The position numbers and the translations under genes were made by a program. From Rariglobus sp. (GTDB lineage: Bacteria; Verrucomicrobiota; Verrucomicrobiia; Opitutales; Opitutaceae): a DNA stretch of 32,852 bases. Location: positions 1 to 32,852 of the forward strand of contig JAQSWS010000036.1 of assembly GCA_029266495.1 (NCBI GenBank), written 5' to 3'. Shown here in pieces: positions 7,796 through 32,852 of the stretch; positions within the stretch are counted from its first letter, which is position 1, and each line of letters begins with the position of its first letter. The notes below the pieces were generated by a model. That model was not told the origin of the DNA, ran no database searches, and saw only the letters and a list, made by a program, of their open reading frames with translations.

Positions 7796-7825
7796 CAGGC
7801 TGAGGACACTTTTGGGCTTTATCAG

Positions 7826-7842
7826 CGACGCTCTTCGCGTCG
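7826..7842 (+). other. Small hairpin between the acyl genes
   Basis: CGACGC (7826-7831) and GCGTCG (7837-7842) form a 6-bp GC-rich stem with a TCTTC loop, 30 bases before the ketosynthase ATG at 7873. No T-run follows, so it is not a standard terminator. It could affect translation or transcript stability, or be chance. Confidence 0.25.
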
Positions 7843-7872
7843 AGCATGACGCCTGTAACGTCCCCATCTCCC

Positions 7873-9144: not shown

Positions 9145-9176
9145 ATCGCGTTGATTTTAAAGCCGCAAATCGCTCA

Positions 9177-11788: not shown

Positions 11789-11794
11789 CGGGGT

Positions 11795-17350: not shown

Positions 17351-18441
17351 CGGGTGGCTTGGAGTTCCAAGCCGACCACCTTCAGGTTGTTATGCCTGTT
17401 TTCAATATGATAGTGGATGATATCCGAAAAATGGCCGTTCATGACTCCGTCGCAATACTTGGCGCCGGGTGTAAAGCAGCGCAACGTGAGCGAGTTGGAG
17501 AAAATGATTGCGAGATTGTCGAGTGCGGACGACGCAATGGAGGCGACTTCGGCGGGCAGGGCGGAGGATTCGATCAACGACAATTCCACCGGAAGGAGGT
17601 CGGGCCTGGACACGATAAATCCCAAGCCGGCGACATCTGCTAATTTTTCCGCCGACTCGTCCCGGTGCGGGCGGTAGACGACGCGGCGTTCTTGATAAAA
17701 CTCTTTTATTTTCTGAAGGCTTTCCAAGTAACACTCCCGGGTGGTGAGTTTTTTTTCCACATGGGACATCCCGAGAAATAGAATTTCATCCCCGGTGGCG
17801 TGTTGTCTGCCGGCCAGGCGGGAGCGCCAGAATTCATAATGATGGGGGATGAGATGATCGTGGGGGGAGAGGTTGATGGCGTAATGGCTGAAAAACGTAA
17901 GGTGGCGAATGGGAGGAAGGGTTATCCCCGCCCACATTTTCAGCCGGAGCGAACGCAGGTCGTTATGCGGAAACATGGGCGCCAGCTTTGGATCCCGCGG
18001 ATTGCGTCTGAAGCGTGCGATCTGGTGGGTGGCGGAGCCGTCGTCGAGCAGGACGATCCGTGCTGCCGGAAACTGGGCGGCCAGATGGCGGCATTCACGA
18101 CTGCGGTAGTCACCGATGACAATTTCGTCGGGAGCGGGCATCGAGGACAGAATGCTCGCGAGTGTATGACTAAAGCGCCGGGCAGGCTTGCGCTCGCTGA
18201 GTGAATACCACCAGCCCTTTTCCCCCGGGACGACCGGGGCGACCCGGAGGGTGACGGAGTCGATCCCTGCGAGCAGGCGGCTCAGCAGGTCTGCTAACTG
18301 CGGCTTCCGCGCCGAGCAGAATACGATCGCGTAAACCTTCAGGGAGACGCCCTGGGTTTTTAAATAGTGGTGATATTCAATCGCGTTAAAGGCTTGAAGG
18401 GGGGACTTGACCGCAATCAGGACTGTTTGCGAAGTGACCAT
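17347..18441 (-). CDS. Sialyltransferase-like protein (GT52/polysialyltransferase type)
   Basis: This 364-residue protein begins VLIAVKSPLQAFNAIEY, the first strand typical of bacterial GT52 and polysialyltransferase proteins (the 'TPLQ' type start). It has the D/E-D/E-G motif of these families (LLDDGSATHQ, residues 133-135) and a following S-S motif (ASSALDNL at 303-310). The catalytic HP motif appears altered: YRPHRDE at 256-262, with PHR where KPHP is expected. E286 in PVELSLIESS also fits. It probably uses the CMP-nonulosonate made by the NeuA/NeuB pair of this cluster as donor. It has no signal peptide and would act on the inner face of the membrane. It shares ATGA with the GT4 downstream. 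Confidence 0.68.
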   Translation of the reverse strand: MVTSQTVLIAVKSPLQAFNAIEYHHYLKTQGVSLKVYAIVFCSARKPQLADLLSRLLAGIDSVTLRVAPVVPGEKGWWYSLSERKPARRFSHTLASILSSMPAPDEIVIGDYRSRECRHLAAQFPAARIVLLDDGSATHQIARFRRNPRDPKLAPMFPHNDLRSLRLKMWAGITLPPIRHLTFFSHYAINLSPHDHLIPHHYEFWRSRLAGRQHATGDEILFLGMSHVEKKLTTRECYLESLQKIKEFYQERRVVYRPHRDESAEKLADVAGLGFIVSRPDLLPVELSLIESSALPAEVASIASSALDNLAIIFSNSLTLRCFTPGAKYCDGVMNGHFSDIIHYHIENRHNNLKVVGLELQATR

Positions 18442-18488: not shown

Positions 18489-20168
18489 TCAGGGGTCCAG
18501 AACGACCCGGGCGCCGATCGCGATTTGATACAGGATGCCGGTGATGTCCTTCGCAAACTGGAGGTTCTTGGTGTCGGGCTCGGGCAGGACAATGATCTCA
18601 TCGCCGGGCTCGGGGCGGTAGGAACGCGCGGATTTGCCCGTCAGCGCGAGATTCATGGTGGCGCCATTATTCTGGATGATAATGACGTTCTTTTCGTCGG
18701 CGGTGTCGGTATAGCCTCCGGCATTACGAATATAATCGGTGGCTTTGAACTTGCGCTGATAGGTCTGCGTATTGGGGAAACGGATTTCGCCGTAAACACT
18801 GACGAGCCGGGTGTGTGCGGGGACGTAGAGGATGTCGCCGTTCTCGAGGTGGATCGAGTCGCTCTCCGGGCGGGGGCCGAGGAGGATCTGACCCTTGGGC
18901 TCCACTTTGCGGGCGCGTTCGATGAATGCCAGGATGGTCTGGGTTTCGACCTGGCGGAGTTGAGCCTCCTCCAGTGAATCCGAGGGTGTGCTGGTGACAC
19001 TGCGCGCAAGGTTGTCCAAGGACTGGTCAAGCATCGCCTTCTGGCGGGCGGCGACCGATTTGCGGAAGAGCTGGACGTTTTCGAGACTGGAGCGCGCGGC
19101 GGGGGTGATTCTTCCGAGCGCGTCTCCCAACGTGGAGCCATACGGAAGGACCAGACGGATTTCGCCGTCCTGTTCGCCCATGACGGAAACCATCAGGGAA
19201 TGGGGGCGGCTGCGACGCAGGACGGTGATCAAATCGTTGGGCTTAACGACGAGCCCGTTCACCGCGTCGATTGCATGAACCTCCGCGTCGGAGCGACCGG
19301 GGGTGGAGCGCAGGATGCTGACGTGCGTGCTGTTGGGGTTGACCTGGGCCAGCTTGAGAAGATCCGCGAGCGGGATTTCGCCGGATTTAAATTCAAAGCG
19401 GGAGGCATTGAGGACCTCTCCGTTTAACTGCACGTAATGATGGCGGGCATTGACGAGCAGCGTGTCGCCATCGCGAAACTGGCTGCGATGGGTTTTTCCG
19501 GTGGCGAGGAAATCATAGAGATTGATGGACTCGACGACTTCGCGGTTACGGATGAGCGAGATATCTATATAACTGCCGCGGTCAGGGTCGATGCCCCCGG
19601 CCTTGGAGAGAAAATACAGCATGATGTCCGACGAATTTCCGCCGTATAGGCCCGGTTTTTGAACGTAGCCGGTGACGAAGACCTTCACCGGTTGGGCGGA
19701 GGCGAGGTTTGTATAGACGCTTACGCCCTTGATGTAGACTTGCTGGACACGATCACGGACGAAGCGGTCGAGTTCTTGATTGCGGACGCCGGCGACGGTG
19801 ATCGGGCCGACTTCCGGAATGAAGATGTTGCCTTGCGCATCGACGGTGAGCGCGAGGGATGACTGAACGGAACCCCAGAGCATGACCTTTAGCTGATCTC
19901 CGACCGCTATTTCGTAGTCGGGGTTGAAGCCTGAAAAGGAAACCGACGTGAAATCACCCTTGAAAAGATGGGCGCCGAAAGGTGTCGGGGTGGCGGGCGC
20001 TTCTTCCACGACGACGGGGGAGACCTTGGGCTGGAGGACCTCCATGCTGGTCATTTCCTGGGCCACCGACGGGGTATTGGTCTGGATCGCCAGCTGTGCG
20101 GGAAGCATTGCCGGGGCTGCGAGCACCCAAGCTGCAAGAATGAAGCGGAGGAACGGACGTGGTTTCAT
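18489..20168 (-). CDS. kpsD: Polysaccharide export outer-membrane protein, KpsD/Wza-like
   Basis: This 559-residue protein has a signal peptide (residues 1-24, ending PAMLPAQ) without a lipobox Cys, as in KpsD rather than the lipoprotein Wza. The polysaccharide export domain begins at about 84 (YEIAVGDQLKVMLWGSVQ). SLBB-type repeats follow: VKVFVTGYVQKPGLYGG, then YVQLNGEVLNASRFEFKSG, and near the end LVSVYGEIRFPNTQTYQ with YIRNAGGYTDTADEK. Such proteins form the periplasmic/outer-membrane channel for capsule chains. The gene lies 10 bases after a KpsE-like gene and after the KpsMT pair, matching an ABC-dependent (group 2/3 style) export system. The length is like KpsD of E. coli (about 558). 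Confidence 0.9.
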   Translation of the reverse strand: MKPRPFLRFILAAWVLAAPAMLPAQLAIQTNTPSVAQEMTSMEVLQPKVSPVVVEEAPATPTPFGAHLFKGDFTSVSFSGFNPDYEIAVGDQLKVMLWGSVQSSLALTVDAQGNIFIPEVGPITVAGVRNQELDRFVRDRVQQVYIKGVSVYTNLASAQPVKVFVTGYVQKPGLYGGNSSDIMLYFLSKAGGIDPDRGSYIDISLIRNREVVESINLYDFLATGKTHRSQFRDGDTLLVNARHHYVQLNGEVLNASRFEFKSGEIPLADLLKLAQVNPNSTHVSILRSTPGRSDAEVHAIDAVNGLVVKPNDLITVLRRSRPHSLMVSVMGEQDGEIRLVLPYGSTLGDALGRITPAARSSLENVQLFRKSVAARQKAMLDQSLDNLARSVTSTPSDSLEEAQLRQVETQTILAFIERARKVEPKGQILLGPRPESDSIHLENGDILYVPAHTRLVSVYGEIRFPNTQTYQRKFKATDYIRNAGGYTDTADEKNVIIIQNNGATMNLALTGKSARSYRPEPGDEIIVLPEPDTKNLQFAKDITGILYQIAIGARVVLDP

Positions 20169-20178
20169 AGGGGAGGGT

Positions 20179-21288
20179 TCAGCGGTCGATATGACACATG
20201 ACGGAATCGTAGATCAGCCGGCCGAGCACGGTGACCAAGCCGAGGAGGGCGAGGGCCGTAAGAGTCCAGTAGCCCACGCGGGGATAGGTGGCGTCTTCCA
20301 GGCTCGACGGATGGGCGATCACGATGAGGGATCGGATATTGAGTGCGGCTTGGGCATGGGCGGATTGAAGGGCCAGCAACGCCGAGGCGTAGGTTTTGGC
20401 GGCGAACTCGGTTTCGATTGCGGCGTCATTGAACTTCATGATCTCACTGGCCAGCGGGGTGCCGCCCGGGGCCTGCCCGGCGAGGCGGGCGCGAAGGGTG
20501 GAAATTTCGGTGGTGAGCGCGTCGATGCGGGACTGCGTTTCAACCAACTGCGGGGCGCCGGCGGCGATGAAGGTCCTGCGGCCGGCGATCCGGGTGTTTT
20601 GCTCCGCGAGTTCGCGTTCCATGCGGGCGATCACCTCCATCAGGGCTTCGGAGTAGCGGGCGGGGTCCAGCTGGCCCGCGGTGTTTTGATAGAGGGTCAG
20701 CTTTTGCGTGCGGTCCTTGAACAGGGACTCGGCTTTGGCGACTTCGAGGCGGATGAACCCGACCTGCTTGTCGGCGAGCTGCCTGGAGACGGCGTTGAGC
20801 ATGGCCTCGGACTCGGAGACGATGTGGTCCGCGAGGGCGAGGGTCTGCCCGGGTGAAAATCCGCGGGCTTCGACATGGAGGATCGAGCTGCTGTCCACGA
20901 TCACGCGGACCATCCCGCGATAATAATCCAGGAACTCGTCGAATGACGCGTCCTTGGGAAGGCGTTGCCAGCGGTTGATCGAAGGCGACGAGTAGTGGTC
21001 GCGCAGCCGGAGATCCGCATCGAGGCGTTTGAGCATGTCGGGCGAGAGGATGTATTGCTCGATCATGTGCGAATCGACGTCCTTGCTGCGCAGGGCTGCG
21101 CCGAGCATCGCGCCGGCGGGGTCCGCGCCGGAGGGAATGTCGCTGCTGCGGGGCAGGACAACGACCGCGGCCTCGTAAACGGGCGTGTATAGGAAAACCC
21201 AATACGCGGCGAGCAGCAGCGTCGGGGCGATCACGAGGAGGAGCAGCCGCTTGAGGGCCGATGGAGGACTCGGGGAGGAGTGTTGCAT
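20179..21288 (-). CDS. kpsE: KpsE-like capsule export inner-membrane protein (copy 1)
   Basis: This 369-residue protein has the PCP/KpsE layout: one N-terminal membrane helix (about 11-34, RLLLLVIAPTLLLAAYWVFLY), a long periplasmic part with IEQYILSPDMLKRLDADLRLRDHY and coiled-coil regions (about 150-290), and a C-terminal helix (about 340-361) after the PRVGYW turn. Proteins of this class join the inner-membrane KpsMT transporter with the outer-membrane KpsD channel. A TTG 21 bases upstream would overlap kpsT by 14 bases; the ATG at 21288, 7 bases after the kpsT stop, is preferred. A second, clearly related copy is encoded on the other side of kpsMT. Confidence 0.88.
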   Translation of the reverse strand: MQHSSPSPPSALKRLLLLVIAPTLLLAAYWVFLYTPVYEAAVVVLPRSSDIPSGADPAGAMLGAALRSKDVDSHMIEQYILSPDMLKRLDADLRLRDHYSSPSINRWQRLPKDASFDEFLDYYRGMVRVIVDSSSILHVEARGFSPGQTLALADHIVSESEAMLNAVSRQLADKQVGFIRLEVAKAESLFKDRTQKLTLYQNTAGQLDPARYSEALMEVIARMERELAEQNTRIAGRRTFIAAGAPQLVETQSRIDALTTEISTLRARLAGQAPGGTPLASEIMKFNDAAIETEFAAKTYASALLALQSAHAQAALNIRSLIVIAHPSSLEDATYPRVGYWTLTALALLGLVTVLGRLIYDSVMCHIDR

Positions 21289-21295
21289 GGCGGGA

Positions 21296-21955
21296 TCAGT
21301 CGTCGGCAAAGGGGGCGATCGCTTCCTCGATGTCCTCCACGAGGGTGAGTTTATGGTCCTGAACGACGACGGCCACCTGGCAGAACTGGCGGATCGTGTT
21401 CATCTGGTGGGACACGAGGATGATGTTGTGTTTTTGATTCCGGGCCCGGAGCCAGGTCTTGCAGGTGTCGCGAAAACCCGCGTCGCCGACGCTGGTGATT
21501 TCGTCGAGGAGGAAGTAGTCGTAGTCAAAAGCCATGCAGAGGGCGAAGCCGAGGCGCACGCGCATGCCGGCGGAGTAGTTTTTGACGGGCTCGTCGAAGT
21601 ATTCGCCGATGCCCGAGATCTCATGAACTTTTGCGAGTTTCTCGCGGATCGCCTCGCGTGAATAACCGTGGATGGAGAATACCACCCAGCAGTTTTCCCG
21701 GCCCGACATGACGGGCAGAAAGCCGCCGCGCAACGTGACGGGCCACGACAGGCTGCCGGTGGAGGCGATCCGGCCGCCGTCGGGCTGGTCGACGCCGGCG
21801 AGAAGACGGAGCAAGGTGGATTTGCCGGCGCCGTTGGCACCGAGGATGGCGACGTTGACGTCCGGCGGGATCGTCACGGAGGCATCTTGGAACACGGGGT
21901 GGAGGCGGCCGTTTCCGAGCCGGTAGGCTTTGTCCAAATGGGAGATTTTAATCAT
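21296..21955 (-). CDS. kpsT: Capsule ABC transporter ATP-binding protein KpsT
   Basis: This 219-residue ATPase has Walker A GANGAGKST at 39-47, the signature YSAGMRVRLGFA at 127-138 (in place of LSGGQ, typical of polysaccharide exporters), Walker B FLLDEI at 148-153 and the switch His183 in VSHQMNTIRQ. The length and motifs match KpsT/CtrD/BexA, without the C-terminal glycan-recognition extension of Wzt, so export is probably not tied to a terminal cap. It powers transfer of the lipid-linked chain across the inner membrane with KpsM, whose gene it overlaps by 8 bases at 21948-21955. Confidence 0.93.
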   Translation of the reverse strand: MIKISHLDKAYRLGNGRLHPVFQDASVTIPPDVNVAILGANGAGKSTLLRLLAGVDQPDGGRIASTGSLSWPVTLRGGFLPVMSGRENCWVVFSIHGYSREAIREKLAKVHEISGIGEYFDEPVKNYSAGMRVRLGFALCMAFDYDYFLLDEITSVGDAGFRDTCKTWLRARNQKHNIILVSHQMNTIRQFCQVAVVVQDHKLTLVEDIEEAIAPFADD

Positions 21956-22748
21956 CCTGGAGCAGGCGTTTGTGGTTCAGGCGCATCGCCAGCATCCCCG
22001 CGGTGAGAGAGGCGGCCGCGCACACGGCGATGAAGTCGAGCCGCCCGTGCGACGTGTAGCTGTAGTAGAAGCAGCTGCGGGTGATCTCGGTCGCGTGCAG
22101 CAGCGGGTTGAGCAGAAAATAGGGGCGAATGTCGGACGGCAGCGACTCCGCCGTGAAAAAAATACCCGAGATAAAAAACAGCGGACGGATGAAAAACGGC
22201 ACGAAGCGGCGCGCTTCGGGCAGAACCGTGAGAAGGACCGTGAAGAGCATGCTCAGTCCCAGGGCGAGGATCAGCAACAGGCCGATGTTGACCAGCAGTT
22301 CAAGGAACCGGACCTGCTCGATTCTAAAATGGAGGATGTGGCAGACCGAGGTGAAGACCGTGAGGGTGAAGATAAAAAAAACGAAATGATGGAGCCCGTT
22401 CGACAGGACGGGATCGACGGGCTGGACCAGCCGGTAGTTGAACAGGGCGTCCGCCTGGCGAAATGCCCTGGCGCCTCCGTGGGCGACCTGCCGGAAAAGA
22501 ATGAACGGCGCGACCCCGGTGATCACCAGCATGGGAATGGGGATGTTTCCCAGTTCATGCCGGCCCCGCAGGTAAAACAGGAAAGTAAACAAGAGCACCT
22601 GCATGAGGGGCTCCACAAACGCCCACGCGATGCCGCCGCGAAGCTGGCCGAATTGTGCGCTCAGGTTGCGAACGAACAACGCGTGGATGACCGCCCATTG
22701 GACTTGGGGGGGCTTGCGCCGGGGCAGGCCGGTGGAGTTCGGGTTCAT
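21948..22748 (-). CDS. kpsM: Capsule ABC transporter permease KpsM
   Basis: This 266-residue membrane protein belongs to the ABC-2 permease family. It has a cytoplasmic N-terminus with LFVRNLSAQFGQLRGGIAWAF, about six hydrophobic segments, and the late segment PFFIRPLFFISGIFFTAESLP followed by LLNPLLHATEITRSCFY, all as in KpsM/CtrC/BexB. It forms the channel for capsule chains in the inner membrane with KpsT. The frame is open further upstream, but the ATG at 22748 overlaps the stop of the KpsE-like gene by ATGA and gives the family's normal N-terminus. Coupling with both neighbours fits a single export complex. Confidence 0.92.
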   Translation of the reverse strand: MNPNSTGLPRRKPPQVQWAVIHALFVRNLSAQFGQLRGGIAWAFVEPLMQVLLFTFLFYLRGRHELGNIPIPMLVITGVAPFILFRQVAHGGARAFRQADALFNYRLVQPVDPVLSNGLHHFVFFIFTLTVFTSVCHILHFRIEQVRFLELLVNIGLLLILALGLSMLFTVLLTVLPEARRFVPFFIRPLFFISGIFFTAESLPSDIRPYFLLNPLLHATEITRSCFYYSYTSHGRLDFIAVCAAASLTAGMLAMRLNHKRLLQDD

Positions 22749-23875
22749 CGTTTGCCTTTCGGGCCTGGGGCGGGGCGGAGGAGCCGGCCGGCAATCGGCG
22801 CGGCCGTGAACAGGTGCAACGTGCCGGCGGCAAGCATCCACACCCAGATGCGCGGGTAGGAGTGGTCTTGCGGCAACATGGGTGAGGAGACCAGGACGAG
22901 GGACTTGAGGTTTTCAGACGCGGCGATCTGCGCGCTTTGCAACGCCGTCAGGGAGCCCGCGTAGCTCTGCGTGGCGAGGTCCAGCTCCAGTTGAACGATT
23001 TGGTAGGATGCAAGGAGCTGGTTGAACGGCGTGGCACCTTCGTCCGTGGCGCTGGCGGAACGGGTGAGCCGGGCCCGTTCAAGGGCGATTTGCTCCTCGA
23101 TCGCCCTGATCTTGGCCTGGCTCTCGCTTGCCGCGGGTGCGGTGGGCGCCAGGTATGCCAGCGTGCTCGCGAGGTGGGCCTTTTCCGTGGCGAGGGCGGA
23201 CTCAAGGCCGGCGATGATCGACAAGGCGGCCGAGCCGTCCTTGTCCGGCATGAACGTGTTGTTCTCCTGTTGAAACGCCAGCACGTGGCGGCTTTTCGCG
23301 GCATGCTCGGCCTTTGTCTTGTCGAGGTGCTCGCGTGCGGCCGACGTCTGACGCTCGGCGATCTTGCGGGAGACCTCGTTCACATAATCCTCGGCCGCTT
23401 TAAGGGTGAGCTGGGATTGGCGGAGGGTCTGCTCGGGCGAGTATCCCTCGACCGTAAGGGTCAGGATGCTGGAGGTCGTGTCGATCGACACGTCGATCAA
23501 GGACTGATACTTCGCTAGAAAAACATCGAAACTGGCGTCCGCCGGCAGGCGCTGCGGAGGCAGAATGGAACGGGCCGAATAATGAGTCCGCAGATCAAGC
23601 TCCCGATTGAGGACCTCGAGAAGATTGGGTGAGAGTATATACTCCCGGATCATGTGCAGGTCCTGTTGCTCGCCACCTCCAGCACCGAGCAGGGATGCCG
23701 CGCCCAAGGACATGCTCGCGGTGTCGTGCTGATTGCGAAGAACGAACTGCGTGGTCGTCGCGTAGCGATGTGTATAGCCGAGCGAGAGCCAGAGCCATAA
23801 CAGTAGCAGCGGAAGACCGTAGGCAATGAGCCAGCACGCGCGCCTGGATTGAAGGATAGAAGAGGTCTTTTGCAC
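22745..23875 (-). CDS. kpsE: KpsE-like capsule export inner-membrane protein (copy 2)
   Basis: This 376-residue protein shows the same layout as the copy downstream of kpsT: N-terminal membrane helix (about 13-33, CWLIAYGLPLLLLWLWLSLGY), IREYILSPNLLEVLNRELDLRTHYS, coiled-coil regions at about 160-290, and a C-terminal helix after YPRIWVW. Shared positions such as EYILSP, LDLRxHYS, RLPxDASFDxFLxxY and EGYSPxQTL show that the two copies are paralogues. The start codon is GTG, 4 bases after the GT8 stop. Its stop overlaps the kpsM start. Whether the two copies form mixed or separate complexes cannot be told from sequence. Confidence 0.86.
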   Translation of the reverse strand: MQKTSSILQSRRACWLIAYGLPLLLLWLWLSLGYTHRYATTTQFVLRNQHDTASMSLGAASLLGAGGGEQQDLHMIREYILSPNLLEVLNRELDLRTHYSARSILPPQRLPADASFDVFLAKYQSLIDVSIDTTSSILTLTVEGYSPEQTLRQSQLTLKAAEDYVNEVSRKIAERQTSAAREHLDKTKAEHAAKSRHVLAFQQENNTFMPDKDGSAALSIIAGLESALATEKAHLASTLAYLAPTAPAASESQAKIRAIEEQIALERARLTRSASATDEGATPFNQLLASYQIVQLELDLATQSYAGSLTALQSAQIAASENLKSLVLVSSPMLPQDHSYPRIWVWMLAAGTLHLFTAAPIAGRLLRPAPGPKGKR

Positions 23876-23879
23876 GGGC

Positions 23880-25022
23880 TTAGGGATTCTCGGTCATGGC
23901 CGAAAGCTGTCGCGCCATCCTGGTTTGCTGGCGCGACCACTTCTTCCGGGCCTTGGAAATATTTCTCCGCAATGTGCCGGCCCGGATGTGACGGAAGACG
24001 CCGGTCAACCGGCCCCAGAGGGATGTTTTTCGCTCAGGAAGAATGCCATCCAAGTCGTCTAGAAGCCGGCTGATGACGGTGTCGGCATTCCCCGCGTAAC
24101 GTCGCAAATCCGCGAGCCTCGACTGGCGCTCCTGCAGAATACTCAGCTTTAGCTGCTGAAGTCGCAGATGGTGCAGAATCTCACCCGGCGTCAGCGCCTC
24201 CTGCAAAATTGAAGCCCATAAATTTTCGAGCTTGGCGTAGTTCGATTCCTCCGGGGTCAGGTGAAGCTGCCATGGTTTCTCGCCTACAAAATGGAGGATC
24301 CGCAGGTTTTCTGTCAGGAGTTCATTGATCTGATTGAACGCGGTATCCGGGTATTTCCGCTTGGTGACATTGAAGGCCTCATCCAGGGCGCAGACCTGTT
24401 CGATGGGGAAATAGTCATTGAGAATCGCCTGATCCGCCTTCCCTTTGCGGGCATTATAATCCGGCGAGATGCGGTGATTGAGCAGAGCCTGGTATGTTTC
24501 GCCCGTGAGGTGGAGGCGCCCGATGACCATGACGCCTGTATTGAAATAATCGAGGGGCTTGCCTGTTTTATAATTGAGGCTGCGGGTCGCTGCGAACGGC
24601 GCCGCGTGCTCAAACAAGGCGGTGAGCGAACCGGTGCAGATCATGTCGCTGTCCAAGGTCACCACGCGGTCGAATTCGTCCAAGGCAAACGCCTCGAGTA
24701 TAAAAAAGGCCGGCTTCAGGCGTTCCGGAGTGTGGAGGTGTTCGTCGCGGTTGGCCCAGACCGTGCCGTATCGCGAATCGTCCGCCTCGTGATAGCGAAC
24801 ATTAGAATAGAGACGGCTCACCAGCTCGCGGCTTTCCTTGGACAACGGGGCCAGCTTGCGATTGTGAATGATTATAAAAGGCAGGTTGAGCCCGGGGTGC
24901 CTTTGTTTCAGCGAATGGACAAGCACTGCGAAGCCCGGCACGAAGTCGTCGTTGAGGACGGTGCACAGTGCGGTGCGACCAGGAGTGGACGGGCTGCAGG
25001 GAGCAGGAGGGGAGGCGCTCAT
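23880..25022 (-). CDS. Glycosyltransferase family 8
   Basis: This 380-residue protein has the GT8 (glycogenin/LgtC-like) GT-A core: ALCTVLNDDFVPGFAVLVHSL at 18-38, the metal-binding DxD motif LDSDM at 124-128, YFNTGVMVI at 159-167, KADQAILND at 195-203 and the C-terminal HFVGEKPW at 244-251. Family members move galactose or glucose with retention. The C-terminal 110 residues are a helical, Arg/Lys-rich extension with likely coiled coil (LHHLRLQQLKLSILQERQ), which may bind the membrane or a partner. The start overlaps the stop of the large sulfotransferase fusion by ATGA (25019-25022). It probably adds one sugar of the capsule repeat. Confidence 0.88.
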   Translation of the reverse strand: MSASPPAPCSPSTPGRTALCTVLNDDFVPGFAVLVHSLKQRHPGLNLPFIIIHNRKLAPLSKESRELVSRLYSNVRYHEADDSRYGTVWANRDEHLHTPERLKPAFFILEAFALDEFDRVVTLDSDMICTGSLTALFEHAAPFAATRSLNYKTGKPLDYFNTGVMVIGRLHLTGETYQALLNHRISPDYNARKGKADQAILNDYFPIEQVCALDEAFNVTKRKYPDTAFNQINELLTENLRILHFVGEKPWQLHLTPEESNYAKLENLWASILQEALTPGEILHHLRLQQLKLSILQERQSRLADLRRYAGNADTVISRLLDDLDGILPERKTSLWGRLTGVFRHIRAGTLRRNISKARKKWSRQQTRMARQLSAMTENP

Positions 25023-27250
25023 GTCACAAGGTTCTCATAACGGGCGGAGGGCAGGACGGTCAGGCGGCCTCCATTCGTGGCGTTGACGAGTTTCACGCCC
25101 TTTGCCGCCAAGGTGTCGCGCAGGATCTCGTAGCTTTTGAAGACCGGTCCGTTGTCGGCCCAGATTCGCTGCAGGCTTTCGAATTTTGAGGTGGACGTCT
25201 TGTGGAGCTTGGCGTCGTAACAATAGCGCTTGGAATCGTCCGGGCTCTCGATGCCATAGTCACAGTCGCATCCGAGCAAATAGATCTCCGTGCAGCCCAT
25301 GTGCACGGCCAGTGGTATACACATGGTTTGGATGACGGTATAGCCGTCGTCCAGATGCCTGCTGAGATCCAGATTGATCTTGCCCGCTTCGTCCACGAGC
25401 CGCTTTGGACGTTCGAAGAGGAGATATTTCACGTCCTCGCCGGGAAACAGTCCCGCCTCTTTTATATAGTCTCGAAAAGCGAACGAAAAGAATTTGGTGG
25501 CACCGCGCGCCTTGGCCTGCATTGCGGCATAATAATCGGGGTTCAGCTGAGGATCCGGCTTGTTCCAGCCGCCAAACATTTCGTGGGAGGAGACGCAGTA
25601 GTATTTCGGGCACAAAATCGAATACTGCTCGGCGTTTACAAACCAGTTTGAGACGAAGGTGATTTCGTCCTTTAGCTTGGAGAGGTCCTGGCTGTTGAGC
25701 GACGGGCCGTTGCCTATGATAAAACAACGACGCCCCGCATGTTTGTTCTTCAGCGCATGGATCCTGTCGTATTCCCCCGAGGCGACATACACTTCCCGGC
25801 GGCTCGCCCGCCACTGCTTTGTTCGTTGATTGGCGGGCAGATGCTTCCATTCCCTGACCTGGGCGCGCATGACGGGCTGGGCCATGTCAACCGCCGGGTT
25901 GGAGTGCCGCTTGTCGATGGCTTGATGTTTTTTGGGTTCGGGCCGGCCTTCCCTGGCCGACTTCGGTTTTTTTTTAACCGGGTTGGCTTCGGCCAGGCTT
26001 ATCCGGAGCTGGTTGCGGACCACGCGAAGATCCTTGCGCACCAGAATGGCAGCCGCGCTTCTGGACCGGCTGTAGATGGCGTCCGCCGCCTGTTTGGCAT
26101 CCTCCGAAAGCTTCTTTAGCCGGGCTTCTGTTTCGCCCAGGTGCCGCGCCTTTGTTTCGATCTCATTTTTCAAGGCCGCAATCTCTTTTGCTTTCACCTC
26201 CAGCTCCGACTTGGTGGAGCGCTGGTCCTCTTCAAGCTGCTTATAAGTTGCGACCCGGGCCGTGGCTTCATCGAGCGAGTTCCGACTGTATTGAAACACC
26301 TTCTGAAGGACCTGAACCCCGAGGGACTCAATTACCGCCTCCTGTGCCGCCGGTCGCCGGTCGTCGGCGCCTTGATCGATCTTTGGATTTATATAGAGCT
26401 CGGTGCCGGCTTCCGGATGGCGTCTGGCCAAGGCTTCGTTGGACGGGGCGAACAAGCCGAGAATGCGCGAACGCTCGCTGGCGCTCCAAAGACCCAAGGG
26501 TTCTTCCGGCGGTTTCGGCGAGCACGTCTCGAAAATTTTTCTAAGCTCCGACTTCGAAGACGCATCAAGGAACCGGTTGGCCTGCCGTAACATTTCGATG
26601 GCCTGTCGTGAGACACTGGGATTGACCGGCTGTTTAGGGGGAAGCGCGAGCGTGCCTTGATAGGCCCAGTTCTTGAAATGGGCATCCAAGATCAACCGGG
26701 GATCCTTATACGCCCGTTCGTAGGAGATCACCCGGACGCATTCCCGGCCGAACCGATCTTCATAGCAGGCGGCAACGCGGTTCCAATCCAGGTTTTCATA
26801 GGGAGTATTCGCGATGAATTCATCGAATGTCCAAAATCCTCCCTCCTTGATGGATTGATTATACCACGACTCGAGGAACACATCCTGACGCCTTGTGGAT
26901 AAAAGTATATGCACCTTGCAGTCGGTGAAGAGCCCGGGCAGCGCCTCCGCAATTGTTTCCACGTCTTTATACCCCGTATAGGGATTCCCCATGAAATGTT
27001 CTGATATCAAAATGATATTGCGTTCTTTCCAGCTGGAGTGGGCCAGTTTGATTTCATGATCGAGTTTCGCGACGGTGAGCGGATCAATCGGGTGGCCGCG
27101 GGCGAGCAGCGCCTTTGCGTATTTCACGCCTTCCGGATCGTAGCGGCAGTCGAGCGCGGACAGTTGCGCTTCAAGTTTTACGAGTTCCCGGTGCAGGAAG
27201 GTCGTGCCGGTTTTGTGGGCACCGACGTAAATAAAGATATTTCGCTTCAT
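25019..27250 (-). CDS. Sulfotransferase - coiled coil - GT42/DUF115-like fusion protein
   Basis: This 743-residue protein has three parts. Residues 1-320 are a sulfotransferase with the PAPS loop GAHKTGTT at 10-17. Residues of about 325-395 are coiled coil (ELEVKAKEIAALKNEIETKARHL), followed by a basic linker to about 430. From about 505 the C-terminal domain begins RRCFIIGNGPSL (GNGPSL at 513-518) and has TEIYLLGCDCDYG later, like GT42 sialyltransferases (CstII type) and like DUF115/MptE-type proteins. A GT42-like role would suit the CMP-nonulosonate pathway nearby. The ATG at 27250 (context ACCACTATG) is chosen over a GTG 33 bases upstream, which overlaps the previous gene. It may glycosylate and sulfate the capsule in one protein. 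Confidence 0.75.
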   Translation of the reverse strand: MKRNIFIYVGAHKTGTTFLHRELVKLEAQLSALDCRYDPEGVKYAKALLARGHPIDPLTVAKLDHEIKLAHSSWKERNIILISEHFMGNPYTGYKDVETIAEALPGLFTDCKVHILLSTRRQDVFLESWYNQSIKEGGFWTFDEFIANTPYENLDWNRVAACYEDRFGRECVRVISYERAYKDPRLILDAHFKNWAYQGTLALPPKQPVNPSVSRQAIEMLRQANRFLDASSKSELRKIFETCSPKPPEEPLGLWSASERSRILGLFAPSNEALARRHPEAGTELYINPKIDQGADDRRPAAQEAVIESLGVQVLQKVFQYSRNSLDEATARVATYKQLEEDQRSTKSELEVKAKEIAALKNEIETKARHLGETEARLKKLSEDAKQAADAIYSRSRSAAAILVRKDLRVVRNQLRISLAEANPVKKKPKSAREGRPEPKKHQAIDKRHSNPAVDMAQPVMRAQVREWKHLPANQRTKQWRASRREVYVASGEYDRIHALKNKHAGRRCFIIGNGPSLNSQDLSKLKDEITFVSNWFVNAEQYSILCPKYYCVSSHEMFGGWNKPDPQLNPDYYAAMQAKARGATKFFSFAFRDYIKEAGLFPGEDVKYLLFERPKRLVDEAGKINLDLSRHLDDGYTVIQTMCIPLAVHMGCTEIYLLGCDCDYGIESPDDSKRYCYDAKLHKTSTSKFESLQRIWADNGPVFKSYEILRDTLAAKGVKLVNATNGGRLTVLPSARYENLVT

Positions 27251-27260
27251 AGTGGTTGGT

Positions 27261-28712
27261 TCACGGTTTCGAATTCCATTCACGGGCCCAGCGGTTGGGG
27301 TCGGCCCACGGCGAGTGGGATCGTCTTTCAGTTTGCCGGATAATCTCGGGGAAATGCATGCGCTTCAGCGCGGATGGATCGTGGAGATTCAGGGAGAAGA
27401 CTTCCGCGCGCGCCATGGGGCGGTTGAAAATATAGATGCCGTCGACCCCGGACGACCATGCATTCAATGCTTCGCCCCGCCATAGCTCCGGCCTGATCGG
27501 GACCGACATGCTTGCGGACGAAGACGCGTCGGGAACGTTCTGTTCTATTCTGCGGCGCTCCAGGCACGCGTAATAAGGGACGTCATAGCGATGGCAGAAA
27601 TCGGCGAAGCTGCTCCATGAGCTTAACATATAGTAATCGCTATTTACTACCATGTCGACGAGGTCCTCCTTTAGCCATTCTTCTATATCAATGCCGATGG
27701 CACGGCAAAATTCGACGGAGTCGGGAATGCGCACCATCAACAAGATTGGCCGGCCCCGGTCCAGGGCGGTTTGATCAAGGTCCTTGCGAATGAGCCGGAC
27801 GAGATCCGTGATCAGCGCCAGCTGGCGGTCCGAGGCTTTTCCGCCATCGGCGACAGACTTGAACAGGATGGTATGCCGGGTGAAATCGAGTTCGATGCCA
27901 TCAAGTCGGTGCTGGCCGGCCAGTTTGTCCACACCGGCTTTGATGGCCCGAATAAACTTTTTCCTGACCTCAAAGTTATCATAGTTCAGGGCATTCGGGC
28001 GTGCGAATCGAGGTGGTCGGGACGTGGTGCCGACCAGAAACGGATTACCCTTTTTGTCGGTTGTGGAGGCCATTCGTTGCTTCCATCCGTGCAGCGACTT
28101 GACCGGGAGATTGTGATCGTGCGTATCATTGACCCGGATCGTCCAGAACACCTCCTTGCCATGATTTTTGAGATACTCCATGCATGTAACGAAAGGATCC
28201 TGACGGACCGCATTTCCGGGATTTTGGGCCTCCAGTTTGGCAATTATTTTGGGCCAAAAAGAATCGGTTTCGCCGCTATCATCTTTGAACTGTGGTTCCC
28301 AAAAACGGGAGCCTGCGCTTAATACAACCGTGGATAGCGCGGATGCTTCTTCGTAGCCGACCACCGTTCCTGTCAGGATGGCGGCATGCACATCCGTGAC
28401 GGAGGGGAATATGCGAATGCCATCTTTATTGACGAGGAGGGGCCTGGGCTTCTGACGAAGCTTCCGCCGGGTCATGTAGGGGGATGGGGGGTGATCGGCC
28501 CGATACTTTTGAAGAATCTCGGCTTCCTGTGTTCCCAACTGCTGGGCGGGGCGGTTTTCCAAGAGGCCGTCGGCGCGCCGGAGGCGGACGACGGTGTCAT
28601 TGTCTTCGACGATCTGCGCGGGATCGGAAAGCCGGACGGCGTGTGCGGTGCCGGTCAGTAATCCGGTGCAGCAAACGCAGACGAGAAGTATACACTGGAG
28701 GCGAAAAGGCAT
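27261..28712 (-). CDS. Secreted TIM-barrel, glycosidase-like protein
   Basis: This 483-residue protein has a signal peptide (residues 1-25, hydrophobic core at 8-20, ending TAHA). The mature part has strands and motifs seen in glycoside-hydrolase-like (GHL-type) TIM barrels: HGKEVFWTIRVNDTHDH at 184-200, LDGIELDFTRH at 270-280 with acidic E274 and D276 as possible catalytic residues, RPILLMVRIPDS, and DMVVNSDYYMLSS. The frame is open 12 codons further, but the ATG at 28712 precedes the signal peptide. It lies between two sulfotransferase genes, so it could trim or anchor the exported polysaccharide at the surface. No specific family name can be given from sequence. Confidence 0.7.
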   Translation of the reverse strand: MPFRLQCILLVCVCCTGLLTGTAHAVRLSDPAQIVEDNDTVVRLRRADGLLENRPAQQLGTQEAEILQKYRADHPPSPYMTRRKLRQKPRPLLVNKDGIRIFPSVTDVHAAILTGTVVGYEEASALSTVVLSAGSRFWEPQFKDDSGETDSFWPKIIAKLEAQNPGNAVRQDPFVTCMEYLKNHGKEVFWTIRVNDTHDHNLPVKSLHGWKQRMASTTDKKGNPFLVGTTSRPPRFARPNALNYDNFEVRKKFIRAIKAGVDKLAGQHRLDGIELDFTRHTILFKSVADGGKASDRQLALITDLVRLIRKDLDQTALDRGRPILLMVRIPDSVEFCRAIGIDIEEWLKEDLVDMVVNSDYYMLSSWSSFADFCHRYDVPYYACLERRRIEQNVPDASSSASMSVPIRPELWRGEALNAWSSGVDGIYIFNRPMARAEVFSLNLHDPSALKRMHFPEIIRQTERRSHSPWADPNRWAREWNSKP

Positions 28713-28723
28713 CACGGGGTCGA

Positions 28724-30238
28724 TCAGGCACTGCCGTAGGTCATCCACGAGGACTGGTCCCGGCCAAGGAGTGCGAATAACCGCTTGTTATGCGGTTCAT
28801 ATATACGGAAAAGATCCTTTTTGGCCTGGTCGGAAAAGGGATATTGATAGGCGTCTTGTTCGTTGAAGCGTTTGATTTCCAAGGGAACGCGGTGAACGCC
28901 TATAAAGTCCAGAATCTGCCCATAGGCCTGCCGCTCGTCTTTCTTGAAATCGTCAAGAAACGCGACGTGGACTTGTGAGCGCGGGTAGAGGGCGAAAATC
29001 TTTTCGAGCTGCTCGTCGTAGAATCCCCGGTCGAGAATGCGTTTGTCGAAGGAGGGTTCTTCCAGGTGTTCTATTTTGAATTCCCGTGCATGAAGCAGCC
29101 GGACCTCTTCCTTTACCTTTGGGCGTTGGATGTAATTATAGTGGGATTGGAAGCGACTGACGGGATCCCGCAATATCATGATAAGCTTGGCATCCGGCAA
29201 AGCGGCGCGAATGCGCGGCAGGTTCGGCAGGTCGGCATACGTGGGTGTTTTGTCGCCGTAAGCGATTATGCCGTCTTGTTCAGGGAAGTGGCTGCGATAC
29301 CAATCCATCCCTTGCTTGTAATTACGGGCCTTGTCGAAGAAGTGGACTTCATAGCCGCCCCTCGCCATGTGGATTTGGGGGTGTTCATGAAGATTGTGTC
29401 CAATGGAACTGGTGCCGCATTTCATTCCACCGATGATGAGAAAGTTGGGCAGCCGGCAGGTGAATTCCAGTGGCATGGCCGGTGGCTGTCTGGTTTCGAT
29501 ACGCGGCTTCGGTGCTTTCTTTGGCGAAGGGGGGGCGACGGCCATCAACCGGTCGGGACCGGCTGATTGAACCACGGGAGCAGGCGCGAGCGAAGTGGAG
29601 ATGCCTGCCTTGGCGGCCAGTCCGTCGAACGTGTAGCCAAAGGTTTCGATATCCTCTTTATATATTTCGGCGACGAGGCGGATGGTTTCCTCGTTATAAT
29701 ACTCCGAATAGTGTTTGTGACTGCTGCTATTCACATGGGGGAGGCTGTCGTTTTTTAGATTATAGGTTCGGGCCAGTTGTTTGAAATCATCCGACAACGA
29801 TTCGAAGCGAATGATATCGGAGACGCCGATCCGCCCATCGACATCCCGCAGCCAGATCACTTGGGGACGGAGAAAAACGGCCTTCCGGTTGGCGTTCCTC
29901 ACGTAGTCCTCGAAAGAGCCGCCGGCGGCGAGAAGCTCGCGATTGGGCCTTCCGCGAACGATGCCTTTTTGGGCCATTTTTAGCTCGTAAATATAGCTGC
30001 TGACCATCCGCGCCCAAGGATTCCGCACAATCGCGAAGGCCCGGTATTTTGTGGTGTTATATTTCCTTTTATACCGGGACCACGGGGCGTGGCGGGGAAA
30101 GGACTCCGGCCACAGCCCGGGATTCTCGCTCCGCCGTTTATACGATGGCGTCCATTTCCGGCCGAAGAACGCCTCCACGCTCTGTCCGGCATTTTTGGGA
30201 ATATGTATAAAAATGATTTTTTCTTCTTTTATAATCAT
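28724..30238 (-). CDS. Double sulfotransferase (two fused sulfotransferase domains)
   Basis: This 504-residue protein has two sulfotransferase domains in a row. Residues 1-205 match the Sulfotransfer_2 type: PAPS loop HIPKNAGQS at 12-20, 3'-phosphate site VRNPWARMVSSY at 71-82, and YSEYYNEETIRLVAEIYKED. Residues 215-258 are a Pro/Ala linker. Residues 265-500 match the heparan-sulfate/NDST-like type: GGMKCGTSS at 270-278, GDKTPTYADLPN at 328-339 and LRDPVSRFQSHY at 356-367. Each should use PAPS, probably on different sugar positions. It has no signal peptide or membrane helix, so sulfation would happen in the cytoplasm before export. It follows the neuB-like gene by 47 bases. Confidence 0.87.
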   Translation of the reverse strand: MIIKEEKIIFIHIPKNAGQSVEAFFGRKWTPSYKRRSENPGLWPESFPRHAPWSRYKRKYNTTKYRAFAIVRNPWARMVSSYIYELKMAQKGIVRGRPNRELLAAGGSFEDYVRNANRKAVFLRPQVIWLRDVDGRIGVSDIIRFESLSDDFKQLARTYNLKNDSLPHVNSSSHKHYSEYYNEETIRLVAEIYKEDIETFGYTFDGLAAKAGISTSLAPAPVVQSAGPDRLMAVAPPSPKKAPKPRIETRQPPAMPLEFTCRLPNFLIIGGMKCGTSSIGHNLHEHPQIHMARGGYEVHFFDKARNYKQGMDWYRSHFPEQDGIIAYGDKTPTYADLPNLPRIRAALPDAKLIMILRDPVSRFQSHYNYIQRPKVKEEVRLLHAREFKIEHLEEPSFDKRILDRGFYDEQLEKIFALYPRSQVHVAFLDDFKKDERQAYGQILDFIGVHRVPLEIKRFNEQDAYQYPFSDQAKKDLFRIYEPHNKRLFALLGRDQSSWMTYGSA

Positions 30239-30285: not shown

Positions 30286-31158
30286 TTAAACGCGCTTGAG
30301 CTTCTGGCGCTGCACGGCTTCGACAGGCAGAATCTCTTCTTTTTTATAGCCGAGGCTCTTGTGCACGTTGCGAAGATCGCGGACGAGCTTGCGCAGGCCG
30401 TCCGGCTCCAGGCTTGCGGCATGATCGGTGCCTTTGTTGGTGCGATCCAAGGTGAAGTGGCGCTCAAACCAGATCGCACCGAGCGCGAGAGCGGCGGTGT
30501 CGGCGGCGATGCCGAGGTGGTGTCCGCTGAAGCCGACCGATTTGACGCGGTAGTTGAACGTCTCCTTGAGGCGCACGATTTCGTGGAGGCAGATGTCTTC
30601 AAAGGCGACGGGGTAGCCTGAGGTGCAGCTGTAGATAACGAGGTCTTTCGCGCGGTCTTTATTCTCAAAGAAGCTTACGATTTTTTCCTCCTCTTCATGG
30701 GAGGTCATTCCGAACGAGAGGTGAATTTCCCCCTCATAGTTGTCGGCGAGCAGCCCGAGCATCTCGAAGTTGAGATTGCAGGCGCTGGGGACCTTGATGA
30801 GCGCCGGCTGCAAGGCGATGATTTCGCGGGCGGAGGTGACGTCCCAGACGCTGGTCGAGTAAACGGTGCCCCATTCCTCGCAGCATTCCTTCAGCTTGCG
30901 GTGCTGGTCGGCGGTGAATTCCAGAAATTCGCGATGCTGGCCATAGGTGGCACCGTAGGCGTTGGCGGGGTTGGGATGCGGCGCATTATATTGTTCCTCC
31001 GTGAGGAGCTCGCGCGGGGTGCGTTTTTGGAACTTCACCACGTCGGCGTGGCAGAACTGGGCGGCGACGCGGATCATTTCCAAGGCGGTTTCGAAGTCGC
31101 CGCAGTGATTACAACCGACTTCGGCGATGAGTTTGGGCTGTTCGATGGACGTATTCAT
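30286..31158 (-). CDS. neuB: NeuB-type nonulosonate synthase lacking the SAF domain
   Basis: This 290-residue protein is a TIM-barrel synthase of the NeuB family, which joins PEP and a six-carbon N-acyl or free sugar (or its 6-phosphate) to make a nine-carbon acid. Seen motifs: LIAEVGCNHCGDFETALEMI at 10-29, VVKFQKR, STSVWDVTSA, IKVPSACNLNFEML, CTSGYP, GFSGHHLGIAADTAALALGA, and FERHFTLDRTNKGTDHAASLEP near the end. Common NeuB proteins have about 345 residues with a C-terminal SAF (antifreeze-like) domain; this one stops after the barrel, so that domain is absent. The ATG at 31158 is 7 bases after the stop of the cytidylyltransferase gene and replaces a longer frame lacking family similarity. 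Neu5Ac, Kdn and other nonulosonates are all possible products. Confidence 0.87.
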   Translation of the reverse strand: MNTSIEQPKLIAEVGCNHCGDFETALEMIRVAAQFCHADVVKFQKRTPRELLTEEQYNAPHPNPANAYGATYGQHREFLEFTADQHRKLKECCEEWGTVYSTSVWDVTSAREIIALQPALIKVPSACNLNFEMLGLLADNYEGEIHLSFGMTSHEEEEKIVSFFENKDRAKDLVIYSCTSGYPVAFEDICLHEIVRLKETFNYRVKSVGFSGHHLGIAADTAALALGAIWFERHFTLDRTNKGTDHAASLEPDGLRKLVRDLRNVHKSLGYKKEEILPVEAVQRQKLKRV

Positions 31159-31165
31159 ATAGTGG

Positions 31166-32344
31166 TTAAAAAATATCCGTGGGCTCGGTTGAAATAAGGT
31201 TGAGCAGTTCGCGCACGGCGTCGTCGCCGCCGTTTCGTTCAAGGACGATGCGGGCGTGGGCTTTGACTTCGGGGTGGGCGCTGCCGACCGCGACACCGCA
31301 GCCCACCAGTTTAAAGCAACCGAGATCGTTCAGGTCGTTTCCGAGGAAGAGGGTGCGTTCCGGCGGCACTCCCTCGCTCTTGAGCCATTGATTCAAGGCT
31401 TCCTCCTTGGTGGAGACGCCGTGAATGCAGGGGAGCCCGAGTTTCTGACAACGGCTCAGGACGACGGGGTTGGTCTCGGTCGAAAGGACGAGGATTTTTC
31501 CTGGAAAGACTTTCTTGAACCGGCTGATGGCCAGGCCGTCGCCGCGACTGCAGACAATGCTTTCTTCTCCGCTTTGGGAGAGGTGGACGAGGTTGTCCGT
31601 AAACACGCCATCGAAGTCGAGGACGAGGGCCTCCAGGGGATTGGGCAGGCAGTTCTTCCGTTCCTCGATCTGGCGGGCCTGGGCGACGGTTTGCACGAGT
31701 TGCAGGTCGAGTTCCTCATCGATCTCGATCGCATGGTGGGCCGGGAGTTCCCAGCAGACGGTTTTGCCGAAGAAGCGGTGTTTTCGCTCAAGGAAGCCGG
31801 CGGTTTTAATCAGGTAGGCGGCGCCGTTTTCCATGATTTCGCGTTCGCGATCCTGACGGCGGGGGCGCTTGGATTTCTCATGGTTTACGCCGACCCAGTT
31901 TCCGAACAGGTCCTCTCTCCAGATAAAGCGGTGATTGGCCACCCCGGTGAAGGCGGTGTCGGCATTGGAGGCGATCGCATGGGCGATCATTTCTTCAAGA
32001 TCGGAAGCACGGGTGAGCGGGCTGGTGCACTGCAGAAACAGCAGGTAGTCGGGAACCCAGCCGGCAGCCCGCCAGGTTTCGAGCCCGTGGAGGAGGGCCA
32101 GTTCCGAACTGGCGGCGTCGCCGCTGAGTTCGGGCGGGCGCCAGATGATTTCGGCGCCGGCGGCTTTGGAGAGAGCGGCGATGGCGGGGTCGTCGGTCGA
32201 AACGGCGACGCGGTCGACTTTGTTGCAGAAGAGCGCCGCGTGAATCGTGTGGACGACGAGAGGCTTGCCGGCGACGTGGCGGAGATTTTTACCGGGGATT
32301 CCTTTGGAGCCCCCGCGCGCCGGAATGATTGCACCGATGGTCAT
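31166..32344 (-). CDS. neuA: CMP-nonulosonate synthetase fused to KdsC-like HAD phosphatase
   Basis: This 392-residue protein has two domains. Residues 1-225 are a NeuA-type cytidylyltransferase (P-loop-like IPARGGSKGIPGKN at 7-20, SPLTRASDLEEMI, GAAYLI, then HHAIEIDEELDL), which activates the nine-carbon sugar with CTP. Residues 236-385 are a HAD phosphatase of the KdsC type: VLDFDGVFTD at 241-250 (Asp243, Asp245) and LGNDLNDLGCF near 334. The domain order resembles vertebrate CMP-sialate synthetase. A phosphatase beside a NeuB-type synthase suggests that the sugar passes through a 9-phosphate. An upstream ATG at 32380 would overlap the regulator gene; the ATG at 32344 fits the family start. 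Confidence 0.88.
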   Translation of the reverse strand: MTIGAIIPARGGSKGIPGKNLRHVAGKPLVVHTIHAALFCNKVDRVAVSTDDPAIAALSKAAGAEIIWRPPELSGDAASSELALLHGLETWRAAGWVPDYLLFLQCTSPLTRASDLEEMIAHAIASNADTAFTGVANHRFIWREDLFGNWVGVNHEKSKRPRRQDREREIMENGAAYLIKTAGFLERKHRFFGKTVCWELPAHHAIEIDEELDLQLVQTVAQARQIEERKNCLPNPLEALVLDFDGVFTDNLVHLSQSGEESIVCSRGDGLAISRFKKVFPGKILVLSTETNPVVLSRCQKLGLPCIHGVSTKEEALNQWLKSEGVPPERTLFLGNDLNDLGCFKLVGCGVAVGSAHPEVKAHARIVLERNGGDDAVRELLNLISTEPTDIF

Positions 32345-32364
32345 GTTAGTTGGAAAAACGGGGC

Positions 32365-32852
32365 TTATTTGGTCAGCCATTTTTGGATGTGGCTGAACTT
32401 GGTGCGCCAGCGCTGCAGCTTCTTGATGCGCCCGGTGAGAAAGGCGTCCGTGTGTGAAGTGAGGCCGGGTTGAATCGATTCGATCTGGTCGAAAAAAAGA
32501 TCGAAGGCCGGGACGACACGGCCTGTGAACAGGCTTTTGATCACCACGCCCAGGTCGGGTTCGATGACGAAGGCTTCGCGGCGGGCGCCGAGTTCGAAGG
32601 CGGAACGGATCGCGCCGACGTCTTTCAAGGCTTTCAGTCCCTGGCCGGCGGAACTGCGGCTGATCTTGAGGGCATCGACGCAGTCTTGGGCGCTGACGGG
32701 GTGTTTTGAAGTGAAGAGGAGCCCGTAAATTTGAGCCAGCGACTTGGGGAACCCGAGGGTGTCGGCCAGCTGGACCCAGTGCTCGATCATCCCGAGTTCG
32801 GCGGGAGTAAGGGTGCGGGCGGGTGCATCCGCCGGTTCAGTCTCGGAACCAC
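32365..32852 (-). CDS. GbsR/MarR-like transcriptional regulator, 5' end outside window
   Basis: The visible frame stays open to the right edge, so the N-terminus is cut; an internal ATG at 32790 is probably not the start because the coding pattern (LTPAELGMIEHWVQLADTL) continues above it. The winged-helix domain carries GFPKSLAQIYGLLFTSKHPVS, then a DNA-recognition helix ALKISRSSAGQGLKALKDVGAI, typical of GbsR-type MarR relatives. The C-terminal part is helical and likely dimerises. It is the most upstream gene of the capsule run, 20 bases before the neuA start, and so may control the run and itself. The promoter lies outside the window. Confidence 0.8.
   Translation of the reverse strand, partial: GSETEPADAPARTLTPAELGMIEHWVQLADTLGFPKSLAQIYGLLFTSKHPVSAQDCVDALKISRSSAGQGLKALKDVGAIRSAFELGARREAFVIEPDLGVVIKSLFTGRVVPAFDLFFDQIESIQPGLTSHTDAFLTGRIKKLQRWRTKFSHIQKWLTK

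Follow-up and report, generated by a model that had tools for sequence, protein, structure and literature searches.

Introduction

Maf flagellin glycosyltransferases are made up of three domains, of which the central pfam01973 domain resembles Cst-II, and PF01973 Maf enzymes transfer nonulosonates (PMC11339370). CstII itself is described as having a flexible lid, with His188 serving as its base (PMC4202792). One paper takes a Campylobacter gene of the PF01973 kind as part of folate metabolism (PMC12102941). Both nonulosonates and sulfated glycoconjugates have been reported from the extracellular matrix of granular sludge, and the authors of that work describe bacterial sulfation pathways as poorly known (PMC10483923). 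Here we describe a gene of Rariglobus sp. (assembly GCA_029266495.1) that joins a PF01973 domain to a sulfotransferase domain. It lies in a stretch of 32,852 nucleotides, hereafter the window, which is one entire contig (JAQSWS010000036.1) of a 4.9-Mb genome. The best-supported reading is that this protein may both glycosylate and sulfate.

The fusion protein can be set beside several known systems. The GT42 enzymes CstI and CstII of Campylobacter jejuni and 9c08 of Pasteurella multocida are the top Protein Data Bank (PDB) matches of its family profile and share with it the GNGPSL motif, an Asn beyond this, a GxD motif, the fold and a flexible lid; the fusion differs from them in its lid motif, in lacking a PF06002 match and in the attached sulfotransferase. 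The central domain of Maf (5mu5) belongs to the same Pfam family and is the best fold match, but the fusion has neither the N-terminal Rossmann-like nor the C-terminal helical flanking domain of Maf, and its gene is in a capsule rather than a flagellar locus. Family and fold are also common to MptE, the archaeal 6-hydroxymethyl-7,8-dihydropterin pyrophosphokinase (HPPK; 8sd5, 8sbu), from which the fusion is set apart by a weaker profile match, its capsule context and an HPPK encoded elsewhere in the genome. The K, R and S of the 3'-phosphoadenosine 5'-phosphosulfate (PAPS) site of known sulfotransferases (3rnl, CurM ST 4gbm and the SULT family) are kept in the other half, which unlike those enzymes falls below Pfam detection and is joined to a glycosyltransferase-like domain. 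Fusions of PF01973 with GT2 or an FkbM methyltransferase likewise join the module to a glycan-modifying enzyme; the partner here is a sulfotransferase.

Results

Two domains in one reading frame

A sequence-only reading of the window had proposed a sulfotransferase, a coiled coil and a GNGPSL-type domain in one protein at 25019-27250. The coordinates were correct, and we place the gene on the minus strand, where a single open frame of 743 residues ends in a TGA stop; the plus strand of this interval, read in the frame given, contains seven internal stops. A GTG at 27283 is a possible upstream start that would add 11 residues, but the ATG at 27250 is preferred because similarity to the protein of a second genome of the genus (the congener) starts there. 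All three parts were borne out, by a 10-member profile, a heptad score and a PF01973 match, respectively. From the N-terminus the order is sulfotransferase (residues 1 to about 290), coiled coil and PF01973 domain (residues 484-743); the C-terminal end of the protein is the end of the PF01973 domain, and the sulfotransferase and the coil take up residues 1-483. As the congener has the same architecture, at 63% identity, the fusion is no assembly accident.

The heptad score at about residues 354-402 was equalled in one of 300 whole-protein shuffles. Between the two congeners the rate of nonsynonymous substitution (dN) was 0.23 for residues 1-290, 0.75 for residues 291-450 and 0.15 for residues 484-743, and its ratio to the synonymous rate (dS) was 0.14 for the whole protein, 0.59 for the linker and 0.11 for the C-terminal domain; dS was saturated in residues 1-290, hence no ratio is given for the sulfotransferase part. 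Both domains are therefore constrained while the linker drifts, as would be expected of two functional domains joined by a tether.

The C-terminal domain

The full-length protein scores 38.9 bits for PF01973 (MptE-like/MAF_flag10), above the gathering score of 34.6, and the domain alone scores 42.6. All 28 family members matched PF01973, and nine of the 28 matched PF06002 weakly (best 0.012). When the family profile was searched against the PDB, 17 sequences were found at E<=10; nine of these were GT42 enzymes (1.4e-5 to 1.2e-4), Maf came next (1.3e-4) and MptE last (0.03-0.26). An AlphaFold model of residues 484-743, made from 18 sequences, had a predicted local distance difference test score (pLDDT) of 81.1 and a predicted template modelling score of 0.85, with a poorly defined lid (confidence was low at model residues 190-201 and 203-205). 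Its top Foldseek match was a Pasteurella GT42 sialyltransferase (2.8e-5). In VIA-align 2 it aligned best with residues 252-511 of Maf 5mu5 (Z 13.7, root-mean-square deviation 4.3, 209 residues aligned), and also with MptE (Z 11.8), GT42 (Z 10.1-11.5, deviation 3.8-4.3, 170-198 residues aligned), GT29 (Z 9.0-10.0), SteA (Z 9.1-9.9) and thiamin pyrophosphokinase (Z 8.3), after which Z dropped to 4.2. Because all six stand above this drop, fold alone cannot choose between a kinase and a glycosyltransferase; sequence and gene context favour the latter. The two alternatives posed by the sequence-only reading, GT42 and DUF115/MptE, belong to one superfamily; the domain is formally PF01973, and its family profile is closer by sequence to GT42 and Maf, with MptE further off. 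It is not a standard GT42 or Maf domain, given its Pfam match, its lid motif and the missing flanking domains of Maf.

Viral-contig searches with two alignments gave nothing further (A2 had no usable stretch and A4 no relative); a third, A5, matched 22 viral-contig loci and was used only for structure alignment. From the 28-row alignment A2 we left out L019 (no GNGPSL-like motif in the search frame), L022 (contig end) and L026 (identical with one of the genes in L004).

Across 42 relatives the N of the second motif, the GxD motif and two C-terminal residues never change. Rows were chosen by a GNGPSL-like pattern, and for 26 of these relatives the conservation of GNGPSL is thus to some extent built in. 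The lid is of a deviant sub-type. HKTxT...WADxGPxFKxYE takes the place of the relatives' NHF...Y, and the D in their YYxVxD stretch is S or H here. This lid and an SSHEMFGGW stretch after YYCV are common to the window, the congener and a Rhizobium homologue, and H683 within the lid is kept in the latter two, although the alignment of the lid is uncertain and model confidence there is low. As the deviant motifs persist in two phyla, and the lids of the two congeners are 90.6% identical, the sub-type appears to be a working variant and not the product of decay.

The N-terminal domain

Relatives of the N-terminal part were gathered stepwise, with profiles of two, five and then ten members. It can be seen from the ten relatives that G10, K13, E84 and R120 are unchanged, while T14, G15 and S128 are kept in nine. 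We take VGAHKTGTTF to be the 5'-phosphosulfate-binding loop including K13, and R120 and S128 presumably form the 3'-phosphate-binding pair for PAPS; the invariant E84 would, we assume, fit the Glu base of sulfotransferases. A Pfam scan of the N-terminus at E<=1 returned no sulfotransferase family, and the two- and five-member profiles matched no sulfotransferase in the PDB. With the ten-member profile, all 21 PDB sequences found at E<=10 were sulfotransferases, three of them below 0.001 (best 3rnl, 1.1e-7). A structure model from a two-sequence alignment was too poor to stand alone; its top Foldseek matches were 3rnl (1.4e-5) and 4gbm (2.1e-4), followed by nucleotide kinases, which have a P-loop fold in common with sulfotransferases. 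We conclude that residues 1 to about 290 are, as predicted from these comparisons, a divergent PAPS sulfotransferase.

An adenosine 5'-phosphosulfate kinase is encoded in the same genome. A Sulfotransfer_1 search of this genome gave two places besides the fusion's own domain, both inside the window. A stand-alone relative of the N-terminal domain was also seen in the genome (G000:C166:11577-12617; L087, L116).

Gene neighbourhood

The gene belongs to a minus-strand run (Table 1) that encodes, in order, NeuA-HAD, NeuB, a double sulfotransferase, a protein without a Pfam family, the fusion, GT8, export proteins and a PF07388 protein. NeuB scores well below the cut-offs of models for N-acetylneuraminic acid (Neu5Ac) and pseudaminic acid synthases alike. 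The HAD part of the NeuA fusion matches KdsC and Kdn-9-phosphatase models, both under the cut-off, pointing to a putative 9-phosphate route to 2-keto-3-deoxynononic acid (Kdn) or Neu5Ac. The HPPK encoded elsewhere in the genome is of the FolK type.

Table 1. Positions of the fusion gene, its domains and motifs, and neighbouring genes in the window.
Feature	Position	Strand	Basis or remark
Fusion gene (P0001)	25019..27250	minus	743 aa plus stop, ATG 27250 to stop 25019
Sulfotransferase domain, residues 1-290	26381..27250	minus	profile to PDB, invariant residues, weak Foldseek support (low-confidence model)
VGAHKTGTTF, residues 9-18, with K13	27197..27226	minus	G10, K13 10/10; T14, G15 9/10
E84, candidate catalytic base (putative role)	26999..27001	minus	invariant 10/10
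R120-S128	26867..26893	minus	R120 10/10, S128 9/10
Proline-free helical stretch, residues 310-405, coiled coil about 354-402	26036..26323	minus	heptad score; fast-evolving linker
Maf/GT42-like PF01973 domain, residues 484-743	25022..25801	minus	Pfam, family profile, AlphaFold model, fold search
GNGPSL, residues 513-518, putative donor-site loop	25697..25714	minus	aligned with CstII GNGPSL
N535	25646..25648	minus	aligned with Asn of CstII RCNQF; invariant in 42/42 relatives
G660-C661-D662	25265..25273	minus	aligned with CstII GID; G and D invariant 42/42
Variable lid, residues 679-710, candidate base H683 (25202-25204)	25121..25216	minus	90.6% identical to congener; motif also in Rhizobium
NeuA-like cytidylyltransferase with KdsC/KDN-9-phosphatase-like HAD domain	31166..32380	minus	Pfam and further model matches
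NeuB-family nonulosonate synthase	30286..31296	minus	PF03102 7.5e-68
Double sulfotransferase, Sulfotransfer_2 then Sulfotransfer_1	28724..30238	minus	Pfam
Protein with signal-like N-terminus, no Pfam family	27261..28748	minus	conserved in congener
GT8-family glycosyltransferase	23880..25022	minus	ATG overlaps the fusion's stop (ATGA)
Capsule export: KpsE-like, KpsM-like, KpsT-like, second KpsE-like	20179..23875	minus	conserved in congener
Outer-membrane polysaccharide export protein	18489..20168	minus	part of the minus-strand run
Polysialyltransferase-like protein	17347..18441	minus	PF07388, 26.4 bits, cut-off 23.3

In the congener the two domains of the double sulfotransferase are found apart, Sulfotransfer_2 as a gene of its own and Sulfotransfer_1 in a fusion with a hexapeptide acyltransferase (L032, 9642-10277 and 10336-11829), which we read as another instance of module shuffling at this locus, after the fusion itself. 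Further along the window, 6854-12991 encodes a FabA-like/acyl carrier protein, a ketosynthase, a GT4, a sulfotransferase and an aminotransferase-fold protein like 8-amino-7-oxononanoate synthase; this is possibly a lipid pathway, and four of its genes recur near a PF01973 gene in L042. A heparinase II/III-family protein (13045-14784, minus strand) adjoins the capsule genes and could be a lyase that acts on a sulfated or uronic polymer.

Distribution of the fusion and of its parts

The full-length fusion was found in two of 189 relatives, namely the window's own genome and the one congener. Two N-terminal peptide patterns searched against a collection of 84,980 species gave a single locus, that of the same congener; such patterns fit only near relatives, and therefore a more distant fusion could have been missed. 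A plasmid search returned 15 records, none at 80% query coverage, and a phage search none. The N-terminal part alone was present in two of 252 genomes of the family. The C-terminal module alone is common, with 19 further relatives and a presence in 40 of 387 genomes sampled from the phylum, the window's included. Seven long PF01973 relatives scanned with Pfam included three fusions with GT2 (L006, L009 and L025) and one with an FkbM methyltransferase (L007). No sulfotransferase was seen in these seven or in 11 other long frames, the latter by reading the translation of the first 330 residues only; at least one of the 11, L121, opens with an antisense-like stretch. In L123, L124 and L125 the PF01973-like domain is N-terminal in a longer protein, and the stretch that follows is dehydrogenase-like by eye.

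The plasmid NZ_CP120639.1 of Rhizobium sp. 32-5/1 (L140, 7603-22271) carries the C-terminal module at 50-51% identity, in two pieces, followed by a GT8 gene; genes for NeuB (60%), NeuA-HAD (41%) and KpsT/M/E-like proteins are nearby, in an order only partly the same as in the window. No counterpart of the sulfotransferase part, or of the double sulfotransferase, was detected at this locus. In the plasmid record a frame change breaks the NeuA-HAD gene in two, and another does so in the module gene; the strain is a root-nodule isolate.

NeuB was present in 28 of the 40 genomes with the domain as against 107 of 347 without it (p 1.9e-6), in a sample with related genomes and with capsule genes that tend to move as a group. 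In the phylum sample NeuB lay within 1.5 kb of at least four of 63 domain places and of none of the best 150 listed GT2 places (p 0.007); within 10 kb the figures were at least nine of 63, the window included, and nine of the best 150 listed (p 0.047). These linkage counts are lower bounds, and the GT2 control places were matched to NeuB places by eye. The link of the domain to nonulosonate genes is therefore real, but it is in part common to capsule glycosyltransferases at large.

Discussion

Both domains are present and conserved in a locus of nonulosonate, sulfotransferase and export genes, and the fold of the C-terminal one is Maf/GT42/MptE-like. The locus probably makes a sulfated capsule that bears nonulosonates. 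That the fusion is a bifunctional capsule enzyme, transferring a nonulosonate from a cytidine monophosphate (CMP) donor and sulfating the same glycan, we rate as an even call. A stricter version, in which one polypeptide adds the nonulosonate and then sulfates that very residue or its neighbour, in two coupled steps that yield a sulfated sialic-acid-type polymer, is possible though somewhat doubtful. The donor, acceptor, sulfation site, catalytic residues, order of steps and their coupling are what we infer. In such a scheme the neighbouring NeuB and NeuA-HAD would make a CMP-nonulosonate (Kdn, Neu5Ac or a relative), and the C-terminal domain would move the sugar from CMP onto the growing glycan, with GNGPSL, N535 and D662 as the predicted donor site over which the flexible lid with H683 would close. 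The N-terminal domain would move sulfate from PAPS (held by K13, R120 and S128, with E84 as base) to the same glycan, the target probably being the newly added sugar or the one next to it. The coiled coil might hold subunits together and couple the steps, and export would follow by the KpsMTE-type system.

Several observations weigh against bifunctional nonulosonate transfer and sulfation. PF01973 was the sole Pfam match of the window's domain, with none to the GT42 model CST-I (PF06002), and the single window sequence matched nothing in the PDB; moreover the MptE fold is as near as that of GT42 (Z 11.8 vs 11.5). The window lacks the lid motif NHF...Y, of which H and Y each occur in 41 of 42 relatives (partly by construction in the 16 viral rows, as one search pattern contained NHF), and H683 is only a candidate for the base. 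The model of the sulfotransferase part is poor (pLDDT 47.7), and a common substrate for the two activities is something we infer. The PF07388 protein is a second candidate nonulosonate transferase at the locus. Finally, the gene-neighbourhood support is weaker than at first sight, as linkage to NeuB at 10 kb is just modestly over the GT2 control and the nine places include the window.

A potential explanation that would take account of the PF07388 polysialyltransferase-like protein is that it adds the nonulosonate, while the C-terminal domain of the fusion draws on a different donor such as CMP-Kdo or a nucleotide-diphosphate sugar; the fusion would then still glycosylate and sulfate. It would fit with the absence of a NeuB match at E<=1e-10 from 12 of the 40 genomes that have the domain, with the unusual lid and post-YYCV column, and with a Maf enzyme reported to take Kdo besides Neu5Ac. 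However, the nearest characterised relatives of the domain use CMP-nonulosonates, and in Rhizobium this sub-type is again found next to NeuB and NeuA-HAD; we consider a different donor rather unlikely. The loss of NHF...Y, together with the S or H in place of the relatives' D in YYxVxD, could alternatively mean that the C-terminal domain has lost its catalytic activity and acts as an anchor which, by binding glycan or CMP, would bring the sulfotransferase to capsule bearing nonulosonates. A domain that is the slowest-evolving part of the protein (dN 0.15, with its lid 90.6% identical), and whose substituted motifs are kept in a Rhizobium protein where no sulfotransferase part was detected, makes such an anchor distinctly unlikely. 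An MptE-type pterin diphosphokinase, or another nucleotide-phosphate kinase, is suggested by the family name of PF01973 and by the Z of 11.8 to MptE; as the profile match to MptE (0.03) trails those to GT42 and Maf, as HPPK is encoded elsewhere and as the gene sits amid CMP-nonulosonate and capsule genes, we regard this as very improbable indeed.

Each half of the fusion is of a known kind, and it is the combination of the two that is new; a literature search of open-licence papers found no glycosyltransferase-sulfotransferase fusion and no DUF115 sialyltransferase. If the bifunctional reading is true, the protein would be a nonulosonyltransferase-sulfotransferase of bacterial capsule synthesis. 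A protein that joins both chemistries offers a defined gene, locus and set of residues for testing, and the fusion suggests that the PF01973 'pterin kinases' of surface-polysaccharide loci include nonulosonate transferases.

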